From NCBI GenBank assembly GCA_019636285.1, contig JAHBXV010000004.1:62001-126000 (forward strand): a stretch of DNA of 64,000 nt, in the 5' to 3' direction. A model generated the notes under the pieces. That model was not told the origin of the DNA. It ran no database searches and saw nothing but the letters and a program-made list of their open reading frames with translations. The DNA comes from Planctomycetaceae bacterium. Its GTDB lineage: Bacteria; Planctomycetota; Planctomycetia; Planctomycetales; Planctomycetaceae. Made by a program: the position numbers and the translations under genes. This document shows, piece by piece, positions 52,824-58,477 of this stretch (position 1 is its first letter; the number at the start of each line of letters is the position of its first letter).

Positions 52824-53579
52824 ATGAAATTCTTCCTTTCAAACCGGGCCGCAACGAGAAGTGGCGGCACTCGACTGGCACGAACCGTATCACGGGCGTG
52901 GCGCTTGATCGTGCCGCTGGGACTTGTCGTGGGACTGGGGTCAGCCGTGCTGGCCCAATACGGCGACACCCGGGTCGGCTGGGGATTTTCGTCCCCCTGG
53001 GGTGGGTGGGGATGGAATTTCTCGGGACCGCTGGGGAGTACGCCAGCTGAGTCGTACGCGCGCGGCATGGCCGATCTGACGCGTGCCCAAGGCGAAGCGT
53101 ACGCGAATGCCGCGCGGGGAGCCATCGACTTCGAAGCCGCTCGTCAATCGTATATCCAGAATCAGCAATTGTGGCAGCAGACGATGCAGGAACGTCGTCG
53201 GATGGCGTTGTCCGAGCGGGAAGCCGACACGGCGAGGCGTCTGGCATCGCGCGACCGCTGGCTGGCCACGAGGCAATCGGCCGCGACGGAGTCGTTGAGC
53301 GAGGCGCGATTCGATAAGGATACGGGCCATATCGAATGGCCAACCGGCCTGCAAGGCGACGAATTCGCCGCGCAGCGCGATTCAATCGCGAGAGGGTTGG
53401 AAGTTCTCAGCCGGACATCGGGACATGGCGACACCGCGACCCACGTTGTCGAGCAGATAACTTCGCTCCAGGCCGATTTGAGGGCGAAGATCACTCAGAT
53501 GGACGCTGGCGAATACATCGAGGCGCGAAAGTTTCTCGAGAGCCTGCGCTCGCAAATTCAGCAACTCTTCCTTGGCTAA
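52824..53579 (+). CDS. Exported protein of unknown function
   Basis: A 251-residue protein. The ATG at 52824 has AGAAGG upstream. The long signal region ends LIVPLGLVVGLGSAVLAQYG. The mature part opens with a Gly/Trp-rich patch (VGWGFSSPWGGWGWNFSG), then becomes a long Ala/Arg/Glu/Gln-rich helical segment, probably coiled coil, to the end. I do not recognise it; the type is common in planctomycetes. It is followed after only 19 bases by fhcC, which may share its transcript. Confidence 0.68.
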   Translation: MKFFLSNRAATRSGGTRLARTVSRAWRLIVPLGLVVGLGSAVLAQYGDTRVGWGFSSPWGGWGWNFSGPLGSTPAESYARGMADLTRAQGEAYANAARGAIDFEAARQSYIQNQQLWQQTMQERRRMALSEREADTARRLASRDRWLATRQSAATESLSEARFDKDTGHIEWPTGLQGDEFAAQRDSIARGLEVLSRTSGHGDTATHVVEQITSLQADLRAKITQMDAGEYIEARKFLESLRSQIQQLFLG

Positions 53580-53598
53580 TCGCGAGTCGCTTGCCGCC

Positions 53599-54417
53599 AT
53601 GCCCCTTGAGCTCACGCTGCGGAGCCGCCTCGAGGTTCCGCTCGACGTCGCCGATGTCCTGCTCTCTGCCTGTCGATCCCTTTCGGCGGACGATTGCGCC
53701 CGTCTGCCGGTCGTGCATGGCAATCGCGATGCCGAGTTGGGGGACTTCTTCATCGTCAGTGGATCGGCGACGGATGACAATACCGCCATCTGGTCGGGTG
53801 ACTTGTCCAAACTTCGTCGACTGGGCGAAGGACACGATGGCGGGACGCTGCGCGTCGAAGGCTCGGTTGGCCTGCATGTGGGCGCGAGAATGTCTGGCGG
53901 CACCATCGAGATTCTCGGCGACGCCGATGACTGGGCCGGGGCAGAAATGCGCGGCGGACGACTCATCGTGCGCGGATCCGTGGGACGATCGGCTGGCGGT
54001 GCCTATCGTGGGGCGACCAGCGGCATGCGCGGGGGAGAAATCTTCATTCACGGAAATGCGGGCGATGAACTGGGAAGCTGCCTGCGACGAGGATTCATCG
54101 CCGTCGCCGGTACGACCGGAGCGGTTGCCGGCTCGAACATGCTCGCCGGAACTCTGGTGCTCGCGGGGAAGGTTGGCTCCGGATTGGGTTTAGGCAATCG
54201 CCGGGGAACGATGGTGGTCCTGGGCGACCGCCCTTCCCTGCTCCCCACCTATCGGTATGCGGCTCGCTATCGCCCGGTGGTCACGCGGCTGGTGTTGCGG
54301 CACCTGCGCTCGCCGGGTTTTCCCCTGAAAGGCGTCGCCCCCGCGCCGGTCTTCGAGCGGTATTGCGGCGACCTCCTCGAAGGAGGACGTGGCGAGATTC
54401 TGCTCGCCTCCGCATGA
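53599..54417 (+). CDS. fhcC: Formylmethanofuran dehydrogenase/formyltransferase subunit C
   Basis: A 272-residue protein with the right-handed beta-helix of FwdC/FhcC and GltB-C domains. Repeats of the type GGxxxxxGxxGxxxGxxMxGG are clear at about residues 90-215 (ARMSGGTIEILGDADDWAGA, GGAYRGATSGMRGGEIFIHG, GLGNRRGTMVV). In the tetrahydromethanopterin C1 pathway FhcABCD hydrolyses formyl-H4MPT to formate; subunit C is structural. No fhcA, B or D is in the window. The ATG at 53599 fits the family better than the TTG at 53572, which overlaps the upstream gene. Confidence 0.85.
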   Translation: MPLELTLRSRLEVPLDVADVLLSACRSLSADDCARLPVVHGNRDAELGDFFIVSGSATDDNTAIWSGDLSKLRRLGEGHDGGTLRVEGSVGLHVGARMSGGTIEILGDADDWAGAEMRGGRLIVRGSVGRSAGGAYRGATSGMRGGEIFIHGNAGDELGSCLRRGFIAVAGTTGAVAGSNMLAGTLVLAGKVGSGLGLGNRRGTMVVLGDRPSLLPTYRYAARYRPVVTRLVLRHLRSPGFPLKGVAPAPVFERYCGDLLEGGRGEILLASA

Positions 54418-54711: not shown

Positions 54712-56583
54712 CTAGTGAGTTGCCGTCTGCGAGTCCGACTGCTCGGCCGCCTCGCGCCAGTAGTCGCCCGCCATCCAGCGGGCGATCAGCGAAATCTGTT
54801 CGGCCGACAGTTGAGAGTAGAACGACGGCATGCAGTTTCCGTCGGCGTAGTAACTCGGGGCTTCGGGCGAAGCGATCATCCCGGTCAGCCACTTGACCCC
54901 GCCGTATCCCGTGAGAGTTGGAGCACCGGTCCCCTCGTTTTCAGAAAGCGGCATCGCCTCATCAACGGCATGCATCGAATGGCAGTCGATACAGTTCGAC
55001 GATAGCGCTCCCATGGCGAGTTCGCCGTTCTCGAAGATCTGGCGACCGAGTTTAACCAGTTCCTCATCGAACGGGGCCAGGTCCGAACGACCGCTCTGGG
55101 CAACCATGAATTCCACGAGCGCCGCCAGGTGCTTAGCATTTTCCGGTTCCAGCAGCGCGTCGCGATTCTCGGACGACCAGCCCGCCATTTCCCCTTCCAG
55201 CAGCGACCTAACAGGCTCGCCGGATTCATCCTTCAGATTGGCGGTGGGAGCAAACAGTTCTGAAAAATCGACAAGTGCCCGCTTCATCCAGTCCCGGCTG
55301 CCGAACTCGCTCAAGTCAGGAGCGGAGTACGTCGGAATCTGGTGTTCCACCACGGGAATCGCGGAATGCGCGTGGCACCCGAGGCAGTTCGCGGTGAACA
55401 GTCTTGGACCTTGTGCCAGGGGATCGTTCTTCAGGAGCGAAAGTGCTCCTTCGACGGGAATCCCCTTCGCCAATGCCAACTCTTTCACCCGTTCGGCATC
55501 GGCATGGGCCTGCTTCAGCGAGGCCTGATGAATAGGGTTCTTGGCGTCTTCATACATGGCCAGCGCGGTCAAATAGCCGATACCCCCAAACACTCCCAGC
55601 ACGAAGGCGACGTTGAACGCGTGTCCCAGTTTCCAGCGGCCAATCCACGGCATCAGGGCAATGATGGTGATAATCATGCCCGGGACATGAATGGCACCAA
55701 AAGCCAGGCCGAACTGTTCGACAATGTGAAATTTGAGAAAGCGGAACAGGAACAGGAAGTACCATTCCGGGCGCGCGGCAGGGAACTCTTCGGAGGGATC
55801 GGCTGGGGCGGTGGTTTCGACGCCCATGAACGTGGCCAGCAAAACGATCGTGGTCATGACGGCGAGGCACACGATCGCATCGCGAGCCGCTTGCCCCGGC
55901 CAGTAGGGAGCGGTCGCCGCTTCTTCTTCGGGCGTCTCCGCCACGCGCGGATTTCGCCGCGCCCAGCACGCATAAATAATCATCAAGACTGCCAGCAGCG
56001 CCGGTAAAAGCCCGGCATGCAGGGCGAACAGCCGCGTGAGGGTGTGATGGCCGTACTCTCCGCCCCCTTGTGCGACGAGCTGAACTTCGGGGCCAACCAC
56101 CGGAGCGGAACCGGCGATCGTCGTGGCGACCTGTGTTCCATAGAAGCCGCGCTGATCCCAGGGAAGCAGGTAGCCGGTCTGGGACAGCACCATGATGATG
56201 GGGAGAATCAACAGGACGCCGAGCAGATGGTTGACTTCGCGCGGACTGCGATACGCGCGATAGATCACGATCTGGAGGAGCGTCAGACCCAGCAGGATCA
56301 TCATTGCGTGGGCGGCAAAGTGGTGCAGACCCCGCAGGAGCCAGCCGCCAATCATCTTGTGTTCGATGAAGAAGACGCTTTCCCATGCCGTCTGCACGCT
56401 GGGGCTATAGACGGCCCACAGAAAAAAACCGGTGATGCATTGGCACGCGAAGGTGAAGGCGATGGCCGTCGTGAACGTGTGCCGCCAACGGGGGCCGCCC
56501 GGTATGGGAAGTTCGAGCCAGCGGTGAAAAAAAGCGCTCGCGCCGGTCCGTTCTTCGACCCACGACGTCAGTTGTCGCCACAC
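54712..56583 (-). CDS. Cytochrome b fused to a diheme cytochrome c domain
   Basis: A 623-residue fusion. Residues 1-340 are a full cytochrome b with about eight membrane helices, including LPWDQ and the quinol-site motif PEWY. From about 375 it carries two haem c sites, CLGCH and CIDCH. By ungapped alignment with b6, His87 and His189 (both ligands of the low-potential haem) are kept, but Thr101 and Tyr204 stand where the two ligands of the high-potential haem should be. The GTG at 56583 has GGAG 10 bases upstream; a TTG at 56592 has its site too close. The Rieske gene lies 140 bases upstream. Together they form a Rieske/cytochrome b complex passing electrons from quinol to c-type haems. Confidence 0.88.
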   Translation of the reverse strand: MWRQLTSWVEERTGASAFFHRWLELPIPGGPRWRHTFTTAIAFTFACQCITGFFLWAVYSPSVQTAWESVFFIEHKMIGGWLLRGLHHFAAHAMMILLGLTLLQIVIYRAYRSPREVNHLLGVLLILPIIMVLSQTGYLLPWDQRGFYGTQVATTIAGSAPVVGPEVQLVAQGGGEYGHHTLTRLFALHAGLLPALLAVLMIIYACWARRNPRVAETPEEEAATAPYWPGQAARDAIVCLAVMTTIVLLATFMGVETTAPADPSEEFPAARPEWYFLFLFRFLKFHIVEQFGLAFGAIHVPGMIITIIALMPWIGRWKLGHAFNVAFVLGVFGGIGYLTALAMYEDAKNPIHQASLKQAHADAERVKELALAKGIPVEGALSLLKNDPLAQGPRLFTANCLGCHAHSAIPVVEHQIPTYSAPDLSEFGSRDWMKRALVDFSELFAPTANLKDESGEPVRSLLEGEMAGWSSENRDALLEPENAKHLAALVEFMVAQSGRSDLAPFDEELVKLGRQIFENGELAMGALSSNCIDCHSMHAVDEAMPLSENEGTGAPTLTGYGGVKWLTGMIASPEAPSYYADGNCMPSFYSQLSAEQISLIARWMAGDYWREAAEQSDSQTATH

Positions 56584-56723
56584 GATGGCCAATCTCCGCG
56601 GGAAACTCGTGTCTTTGAGCGGGAAACGCGACTAAGAGATTCTAGAACACAAGCTCTGTGCAATGAGATGCTTGTCCAGCTTCCACAAGTCTCTGACAGG
56701 CACAACCGGTTGTGTGAGAAGTT

Positions 56724-57356
56724 CTAAACGGCGACCTTCTCCGCGGTTCCCCGGCGGAAGTTCTGGTATTTCACCCACACGAGGCCATTCTCATCGACGC
56801 GGGTTTCCAGGACGTCCATGCCCCGCGGGGCGATTTCGTTGGTACACGCTCCGTCGGCACCAAAAACGGCGCCATGGCACGGACAGAGAAAGTCATTGCC
56901 ATCGTGCCGATAGGTCACCTTGCAGCCCAGATGCGGGCAGATGTTGTTGAAGGCAATGACCTGGCCTTCAATCTGTCGCAGGTAGACCTTGCCGATCGCC
57001 TGATGCACGAACACGTTCCAGGCATCGACGCGGTCGGCAATCAGCGTCACCAGGCGCGGCGAACCATCGGACGGCAGGTCGGCGACAGGAATCGCGGGAA
57101 GGAACCCTTCCTTCGCGCCGCGAAACGCCGACTGCTTGCGGAAGACCGGATCCAGGAACACGGTCGCGCCGCTGACGACGGGGGTTAGAATGGCCACCAA
57201 CGCGGAGCCAGCCGCGGCGAGTGCCACGACGGCGCTGCGGCGGGGCACGGCTGACGACGTCGCGGCAACCGCCTCAATCGGAGCGGATTCAGCCGAAACG
57301 GATTCTAACGGCGCGGCGTGGGCCGTGGCGGTTTGGACCGAGGAAGTGGCGGACAT
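56724..57356 (-). CDS. Rieske 2Fe-2S iron-sulfur protein
   Basis: A 210-residue protein. A Thr/Ala-rich N-terminus leads to VPRRSAVVALAAAGSALVAI, a twin-Arg plus hydrophobic anchor typical of Rieske proteins. The cluster-binding boxes CPHLGC and CPCHGA follow in the last third, in a Rieske domain with IEGQVIAFNNI before them. It takes electrons from quinol at the cytochrome b outer site and passes them to cytochrome c. The ATG at 57356 has GAGG upstream. It precedes the cytochrome b-c gene on the same strand, so one operon is likely. Confidence 0.92.
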   Translation of the reverse strand: MSATSSVQTATAHAAPLESVSAESAPIEAVAATSSAVPRRSAVVALAAAGSALVAILTPVVSGATVFLDPVFRKQSAFRGAKEGFLPAIPVADLPSDGSPRLVTLIADRVDAWNVFVHQAIGKVYLRQIEGQVIAFNNICPHLGCKVTYRHDGNDFLCPCHGAVFGADGACTNEIAPRGMDVLETRVDENGLVWVKYQNFRRGTAEKVAV

Positions 57357-57463
57357 GGCAACCTCATGCGGGTGAGGAACATCCTGGCGGAGGCGGGCGG
57401 GGCAAAAAGCGGATGATCGTGGGCGGGGTACTGGGCAGGTCACTCCCAGACATTTTAGCCAGT

Positions 57464-58477
57464 TCAATCGACCGTTGTCGATGCGTCAGTGGCCGGGAAA
57501 ACGGAATCGAAGGCGCCGCGGACCCGCGTCACGGCCGCTTCGAGCGGGCCCGGTAATGTGGCACCGGAAGCCAGTTTATGGCCACCGCCTCCAAATGTCT
57601 CGGCGAGCGCGGCCACATCGATCTCTGGATTTCGGCTCCGAAAACTGACTTTGATCTGGCGATTCAGCAGTTCCACGGCGATGAACGCGGCCTGAGTTCC
57701 CTCAATTCGCAGGGTCTCGTTGACCAGATCTTCGCTGTCGGAGGACTGAGCGTTCAATTCGGTAAAATCGTGCAGCGCGACCGATGTGTACGCGAGCCGG
57801 CCCTCGTGCTCGAGCTGAACCTTTCCGAGAACGCGCGAGGCCAGTCGAATCCGGGCGATCGAAATCCTCTCGTACAGATTGCGGTAGATGTTCTGCGGAA
57901 CGGCTCCCTGATCCATGAGTTCGGCGGCAGTTCGCAGGGTCGACGGACGCACGGCGGGAAAACGAAACCATCCGGTATCGGTGGCGATGGCGGCGAACAG
58001 GGCAGTCGCCGCTTCGGGCGAAAAAGTCGCCCCCAGAAAACGGCCGAAGTCGACAATCAGTTCACCGGTCGAGGGGGATTCGAGATCCTTGAACTCCAGG
58101 CCCCCCAGGTTGTCCGAGCTGACGTGATGGTCGATGACGGCCCGGGGCTGCGAACACGACTGAATCACATGGCCCACGTCGGAAAGCTGCCCCCAGGCGC
58201 TGGTGTCGACAACAAGATGGGCATCGGCCGATCGGATGTCGTCGGCATTGGCCGAACTGCCGAACGTCGTGATCTGCCCGGCCGGATCGAGGAAATCGAG
58301 GTAGCGGGGGGCTGCCGACGGGTTGACGATTTTCACGTCTTTTCCGAGCGAGACCAGTAGCTCGCTCAGTCCCAGGGCGGATCCCAAGGCATCGGCATCG
58401 GGCCGAATGTGGCTGGAAATCGTAAACGACCGATGGCGGTCGACGAACTGGCGAAAGGGGGTCCAATTGATGGCCAT
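57464..58477 (-). CDS. nrnA: DHH/DHHA1 phosphoesterase, NrnA-like
   Basis: A 337-residue bifunctional nanoRNase/pAp-phosphatase type protein. DHH-domain metal motifs are HIRPDADALGSALG at about residues 23-36, a VDTSAW Asp at about 90, and AVIDHHVSSDN. The C-terminal DHHA1 domain has the GGGGHKLASGA substrate loop. NrnA degrades 2-5 nt RNAs and dephosphorylates 3'-phosphoadenosine 5'-phosphate; in c-di-AMP-using bacteria related enzymes also cleave pApA, which would link it to PgpH in this window. It ends about 107 bases before the Rieske gene. Confidence 0.9.
   Translation of the reverse strand: MAINWTPFRQFVDRHRSFTISSHIRPDADALGSALGLSELLVSLGKDVKIVNPSAAPRYLDFLDPAGQITTFGSSANADDIRSADAHLVVDTSAWGQLSDVGHVIQSCSQPRAVIDHHVSSDNLGGLEFKDLESPSTGELIVDFGRFLGATFSPEAATALFAAIATDTGWFRFPAVRPSTLRTAAELMDQGAVPQNIYRNLYERISIARIRLASRVLGKVQLEHEGRLAYTSVALHDFTELNAQSSDSEDLVNETLRIEGTQAAFIAVELLNRQIKVSFRSRNPEIDVAALAETFGGGGHKLASGATLPGPLEAAVTRVRGAFDSVFPATDASTTVD

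Follow-up and report, generated by a model that had tools for sequence, protein, structure and literature searches.

Both haem bH ligands replaced in a planctomycete cytochrome b fused to a dihaem cytochrome c: a candidate for menaquinol oxidation without a Q cycle

Cytochrome b is recognized in textbooks by four histidines that hold its b haems, and the pair that binds haem bH is indispensable to the Q cycle. The locus described here raises the question of what a Rieske/cytochrome b complex may do when that pair is replaced. It lies in a window of 64 kb (the whole stretch of DNA analyzed) from a planctomycete genome of 6.37 Mb (99.8% complete), the single genome for its genus in the comparison. 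A search of the 64-kb window against Rfam gave no matches. The fused cytochrome and its principal motifs are as follows.

54712..56592, minus strand: cytochrome b fused to a dihaem cytochrome c (open reading frame of 626 amino acids, TTG start)
55759..55770, minus strand: PEWY, motif of the quinol oxidation (Qo) site, residues 275–278, kept in the alignment
55372..55386, minus strand: CLGCH, residues 403–407, first haem c site (alignment columns C403, C406, H407, and M469 invariant)
54979..54993, minus strand: CIDCH, residues 534–538, second haem c site (alignment columns C534, C537, H538, and M588 invariant)

In the profile search, the fused protein matched Pfam PF13631 (3.7e-33) and PF00033 (5.8e-30), both above the cut-off, and also cytochrome c families. 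Its AlphaFold2 model (pLDDT 88.6, pTM 0.83), which is without haem, has a cytochrome b fold, and the top Foldseek matches are bc1 cytochrome b. An N-terminal four-helix domain homologous to b/b6 is thus present. The C-terminal cytochrome c part carries two CxxCH motifs, as in the fused group, and the invariant Met469 and Met588 are possible axial ligands of the first and second haem c, respectively. The original prediction regarded the dihaem c fusion as an unusual electron outlet. It is in fact the normal architecture in the members of the orthologous group from Planctomycetota, Verrucomicrobiota, and Gemmatimonadota that have all four histidines, and it has been described for Kuste3096 of Kuenenia (PMC12954380). 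The unusual part of the protein is found in the membrane domain, at the following codons.

56323..56325, minus strand: His90 (CAC), ligand of haem bL on helix B, kept
56281..56283, minus strand: Thr104 (ACG), at the helix B ligand place of haem bH
56017..56019, minus strand: His192 (CAT), ligand of haem bL on helix D, kept
55972..55974, minus strand: Tyr207 (TAT), at the helix D ligand place of haem bH (=His212 in R. capsulatus)

These positions were assigned in MAFFT alignments with the cytochromes b of R. capsulatus and a vertebrate as references, and with spinach b6, which was used as a lead only. The spacings from 90 to 104 (+14) and from 192 to 207 (+15) are those of b6. The original prediction had named His87, Thr101, His189, and Tyr204; the alignments and the codons on the window bear out these assignments, the numbers being 3 lower because they were counted from the GTG at 56583. 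In the wider alignment with many cytochromes b, including planctomycete relatives, Thr104 and Tyr207 again occupy the bH ligand columns. Misalignment or a frameshift as the cause was rejected because the frame is open and relatives of 50–58% identity align there unambiguously and gap-free, with histidine in both bH columns. Of the four conserved histidines of two bis-His b haems, the protein therefore has only His90 and His192. The position of Cys35 of b6, which belongs to the covalent haem ci/cn next to bH in b6f, is Thr here, judged from the alignment with the spinach sequence. The alignments make loss of the cofactor a well-supported prediction, and a functional bH is very probably absent from the complex. 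Because the two-b-haem feature that defines canonical bc complexes fails, the protein should be called a bH-less variant and not a bc1 complex in the functional sense; by descent, it belongs with the fused Rieske/cytochrome b proteins of planctomycetes.

Is the replacement confined to this protein? Orthologues were collected from nearly all of the 170 genomes of family f1, to which the window genome belongs, from 80 named loci (Planctomycetota, Verrucomicrobiota, and Gemmatimonadota), and from samples of other families. All four histidines are present in about 250 rows from f1 and the named loci (134, including the three references, and 124; the sets overlap). Six distinct proteins from four genera are altered in f1. 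With the residues at positions 90, 104, 192, and 207 written in order, their patterns are HTHY (the window protein), HQHQ (three species of genus g9), HHHY (genome G294), and HFHH (genome G295), and the bL ligands, the Rieske ligands, and the CxxCH sites are retained in all of them. In family f21, one HYHY and one HHHG protein occur alongside HHHH members. Family f3, which includes Thermogutta terrifontis, has an intact bH pair in none of about 40 distinct fused proteins sampled; most are HYHH, and HYHW, HYHR, HTHH (the pattern of T. terrifontis R1), HFHR, HQHR, HWHR, and one HHHQ were also found. Such proteins have been kept in f3 across about 40 genera. As the HHHH rows are many and the altered ones few, the replacement is not chance variation at a loose site, yet it is not unique to the window protein, a recurrence that had been overlooked earlier.

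The altered proteins differ in other respects. In G294 (L062), where one bH ligand is lost, PEWE replaces PEWY and 7 of 12 near-invariant positions of the cd loop are changed. The f3 proteins (L431 and L449–L507) keep both bL ligands and have altered Qo motifs, with TGYLLPWDQ becoming TGDLLxW and PEWY becoming PEWS or PEWA; they may therefore work differently from the window protein. Some f3 fused proteins, among them that of T. terrifontis, have four CxxCH motifs.

Near-invariant positions were defined as those identical in ≥95% of 200 distinct four-His relatives, and the four-helix bundle was split by hand into a cytoplasmic half (bH/Qi) and an outer half (bL). With the four ligand columns left out, the window protein is changed at 10 of 21 such positions in the bH/Qi half and at 2 of 32 in the bL half. 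In the outer (P-side) loops, where the Qo site is located, 1 of 33 is changed. Inclusion of the ligand columns gives 12/23 against 2/34 (Fisher p = 1e-4), but these columns are best omitted because the relatives had been chosen for having all four histidines. Two of the changes on the bH side are listed below.

56470..56472, minus strand: Thr41, in place of a Gly kept in 200/200 HHHH relatives, bH side of helix A
56257..56259, minus strand: Arg112, in place of a near-invariant Gly (198/200 HHHH relatives), cytoplasmic end of helix B

Arg at position 112 also occurs in G294 and genus g9. The other altered lineages lean the same way as the window protein, but G294 alone among them falls below 0.05 (8/23 in the bH half against 3/34 in the bL half, p = 0.02); in g9 and G295 both halves are changed (p = 0.18 and 0.07). 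With the ligands gone and 10 of 21 other positions changed, the sequence argues against quinone reduction at Qi via haem bH.

Replacement ligands were also considered. His91 is an unlikely substitute, as it is general in the group and would, in an ideal helix, face away from the bH site. The original prediction had left an escape route through a residue such as its His92 (=His95), but this residue is also unlikely to serve: it occurs in four-ligand relatives too (e.g., L091, L101, and L105), and on an ideal helix it lies about 180 degrees away from position 104. A b haem might nevertheless still be bound in or close to the bH pocket through different ligands, leaving two b haems with a shifted potential. 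The ligand might then be Tyr207 alone (high-spin, catalase-like), a His/Tyr pair of the kind seen in G294 and in many f3 proteins, or the newly acquired His38 or His122, which lie on the cytoplasmic side. Tyrosine does recur at the bH columns, as Tyr207 in the window protein and G294 and as Tyr104 in most f3 proteins, where His207 is kept; His38 is new in both the window protein and G295, and His122 is new in the window protein. In addition, the literature shows that a lysine is accepted as bH ligand in R. capsulatus (H212K). On the other hand, Thr104 and Tyr207 cannot make up a low-spin ligand pair of the usual kind, the g9 proteins have Gln at both places, and the 10 further changes, including Gly41 to Thr and Gly112 to Arg, are the pattern of a lost haem and not of a moved one. 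We regard a re-ligated second b haem as unlikely.

The partner protein is encoded immediately upstream, together with a conserved neighbor.

56724..57467, minus strand: Rieske [2Fe-2S] protein with a twin-arginine signal (PRR) (PF00355, 2.3e-11; orthologue alignment)
56922..56939, minus strand: CPHLGC, first cluster-binding loop of the Rieske protein (orthologue alignment)
56862..56885, minus strand: CPCHGAVF, second cluster-binding loop of the Rieske protein, with Ala for the potential-raising Ser
57464..58477, minus strand: DHH/NrnA-type phosphoesterase upstream of the Rieske gene (NCBIfam NrnA, 2.4e-30)

The true start of the Rieske protein is probably Met38 (57356). The cluster ligands are complete, with both CxHxGC and CPCH present beside the cytochrome b. 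The serine two residues after CPCH raises the cluster potential in characterized Rieske proteins. At this position, the window protein and G294 have Ala, G295 has Gly, and f3 has either Ala or Asp, so that the serine is replaced in three of the four altered f1 lineages (the Rieske genes concerned, besides that of the window and across f1 and f3, are L062, L068, and L431). It is kept in 103 distinct sequences of relatives (the main four-His group), in g9, and in both altered f21 proteins. The change to Ala suggests a lower cluster potential, which would be in keeping with changed energetics. However, Gly or Ala also occurs here in two four-His groups, the anammox bacteria and a group of four genomes (G152, G304, G311, and G343), and the link with bH loss is therefore suggestive only. 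The Tyr/Ser pair of Rieske proteins has been discussed elsewhere (PMC12954380).

The gene order NrnA–Rieske–cytochrome b/c is the same in the window and in G283, G295, G216, and G416, which identifies the locus as orthologous. The NrnA gene is a conserved neighbor that marks this locus and is probably no part of the complex. No conserved extra gene was found at the locus: the Rieske protein and the fused cytochrome are the only two that stay together, NrnA lying upstream of them, and the downstream genes differ in every genome compared. This arrangement speaks against a scheme in which a partner protein or the next cytochrome replaces bH, so that the bL electron takes a new route and bifurcation continues. 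Such a scheme is not without precedent, since in anammox complexes the low-potential electron is proposed to reach an NAD(P) oxidoreductase (PMC12954380), and in R. capsulatus bL–bL transfer between monomers is fast enough for catalysis (PMC4330944); for the window complex, we consider it very improbable.

How often has bH been lost, and is the remaining protein maintained? In a gene tree of 44 rows, the altered proteins of f1, f3 (a 100% clade), and f21 fall in separate, supported parts, each with four-His neighbors. A single origin for all cases is therefore rejected, and at least three origins are required. Within f1, the cytochrome tree joins the four altered genera (SH-aLRT 89), and an order of these genera like that of the species tree is rejected for the cytochrome alignment (AU p = 8e-7). 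In the rpoB+rpoC tree, which has several weak branches and from which G295 is absent, the altered f1 genera are not grouped. Their grouping in the cytochrome tree may be due to mutual attraction of long branches. The altered f1 branches have lengths of 1.0–1.7 against a median of 0.14, so that evolution must have been fast at some time. Selection was estimated for g9 only, as the genus of the window protein has one genome. Among the three g9 species (HQHQ), dN/dS (NG86 for the Rieske protein) is 0.06–0.14 for the membrane part, 0.10–0.20 for the cytochrome c part, and 0.08–0.11 for the Rieske protein. In g9, a protein that has neither bH ligand is under strong purifying selection. As to the genomes of this genus (G283, G355, and G386; L371, L372, and L373), no rpoC open frame was found in the several kilobases downstream of rpoB, although that stretch contains rpoC in 17 related genomes; rpoB and rpoC thus seem to have been separated in g9.

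The rest of the respiratory chain was compared in the same genomes. In the window genome (G000), no second cytochrome b was found with PF13631, PF00033, or the protein search, and redundancy with another, normal cytochrome b was rejected on this ground. A single contig of the window genome carries NrfD-like and COX1 genes separated by about 6 kb, an arrangement like that of an alternative complex III–caa3 cluster, and cytochrome oxidases and an NrfD-like gene are present in all altered f1 genomes. These genomes have no split b6-type cytochrome b, whereas four compared relatives have one near another COX1. One locus of this kind (G257:C116, L437) encodes a Rieske protein, a cytochrome b of 257 aa, a PEWx protein, and a cytochrome of 1493 aa with eight CxxCH motifs, and precedes a caa3-type oxidase. 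A separate b6-type complex is noted for G216, G291, and G416 as well; the bH-altered genomes are without a second cytochrome b. No NrfD match was obtained in G216, which is of a neighboring genus and has all four histidines. The pattern is not strict, as G341, G152, and G304 combine NrfD and one cytochrome b with all four histidines. This context fits the idea that another enzyme carries proton-efficient quinol oxidation in the altered lineages. For T. terrifontis, complex III has been attributed in print to a different set of genes (THTE_1510–1512).

The same context might instead mean that the complex is being lost in lineages dependent on alternative complex III, the remnant being enzymatically unimportant. 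Such decay would explain the long branches of all altered f1 proteins, in genomes that have the NrfD-like cluster and no second, b6-type complex next to COX1. It is difficult to reconcile with the intact reading frames, CxxCH motifs, Rieske ligands, bL ligands, and Qo motif, with dN/dS far below 1 in g9, with a loss that is limited to one membrane side in the window protein, and with the retention in f3 through about 40 genera. Decay is accordingly judged improbable.

Here, we propose a mechanism based on the analogy with an engineered enzyme. The H212N variant of R. capsulatus, in which the residue in the column of Tyr207 is altered, is a haem bH knock-out that cannot connect Qo to Qi (PMC4807273, PMC4330944). 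By this analogy, the Rieske/cytochrome b complex lacking bH and Qi is, on balance, rather probably a menaquinol:cytochrome c oxidoreductase with one b haem and no Q cycle. The original prediction of one b haem and no usual Q cycle is also the best reading of the present data, because both bH ligands are gone and the bH/Qi side is eroded, the bL/Qo side is kept, and H212N breaks the link between Qo and Qi. For the linear turnover itself, we would put the chances as about even. Each monomer would hold one b haem, one [2Fe-2S] cluster, and two haems c. Menaquinol would be oxidized at the Qo site, with the first electron passing to the Rieske cluster and then to the c haems. The second electron would stay on bL for a time, or pass to the bL of the partner monomer, before it, too, left via Rieske and c in a later step. 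The net reaction would be menaquinol + 2 cytochrome c (ox) -> menaquinone + 2 cytochrome c (red) + 2 H+ outside. This would be a simple redox loop, without the doubling of the Q cycle and without electron transfer against the membrane potential. The alternative-complex-III-like cluster next to the oxidase would then provide the organism's proton-efficient route. The R. capsulatus knock-out did not grow photosynthetically, and reversion restored a ligand (PMC4807273). As the laboratory knock-out hardly turns over, the natural form would need adaptations.

The complex resembles several known systems, each with a clear difference. It shares with canonical bc1/b6f the fold, the bL ligands, PEWY, and the Rieske cluster ligands, but it has no bH ligand pair, its Qi side is eroded, and the Rieske Ser is Ala. 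The Kuste3096–3097 type of Kuenenia stuttgartiensis is alike in having a Rieske gene followed by a cytochrome b–dihaem c polypeptide, and in the bL ligands, the Qo motif, and the haem c sites; it keeps all four b-haem histidines, whereas the window protein has neither bH ligand and has lost much of its bH/Qi half. Like H212N, the window protein has lost the helix D bH ligand and has bL and Qo intact. H212N is, however, an impaired laboratory mutant of a Q-cycle enzyme, whereas the window protein is natural and has lost both ligands, and its g9 counterpart is under purifying selection. Alternative complex III (ActABCDEF) is a quinol:cytochrome c oxidoreductase without a Q cycle. The proposed reaction is alike in outline, but the proteins are unrelated, and the window genome has a separate cluster of that type. 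Searches of open-access full text turned up no description of a Rieske/cytochrome b complex that is naturally without bH.

Given the recurrence in other planctomycetes, a well-known laboratory knock-out seems to have a natural counterpart at work in these bacteria. It is an evenly poised judgement whether they form a natural class of single-b-haem, Qi-less Rieske/cytochrome b complexes, with at least three planctomycete origins, that oxidize menaquinol without a Q cycle, bifurcation having been given up and the rest kept under selection. If so, a Qo site with a dead-end low-potential chain could be studied in an evolved enzyme and not in sick mutants; it could be asked whether it short-circuits, whether it forms superoxide, and how these are avoided. 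T. terrifontis R1 is cultured, has a published genome and physiology, and is a member of f3, where the loss is general, which makes the question directly testable. For annotation, finding complex III in such genomes does not necessarily imply a Q cycle that pumps protons. Finally, the gene next to the bc operon (53572–54417, plus strand) encodes a protein like subunit C of formylmethanofuran dehydrogenase (TIGR03122, 228 bits; cut-off 131), which is a sign of tetrahydromethanopterin-linked C1 genes.
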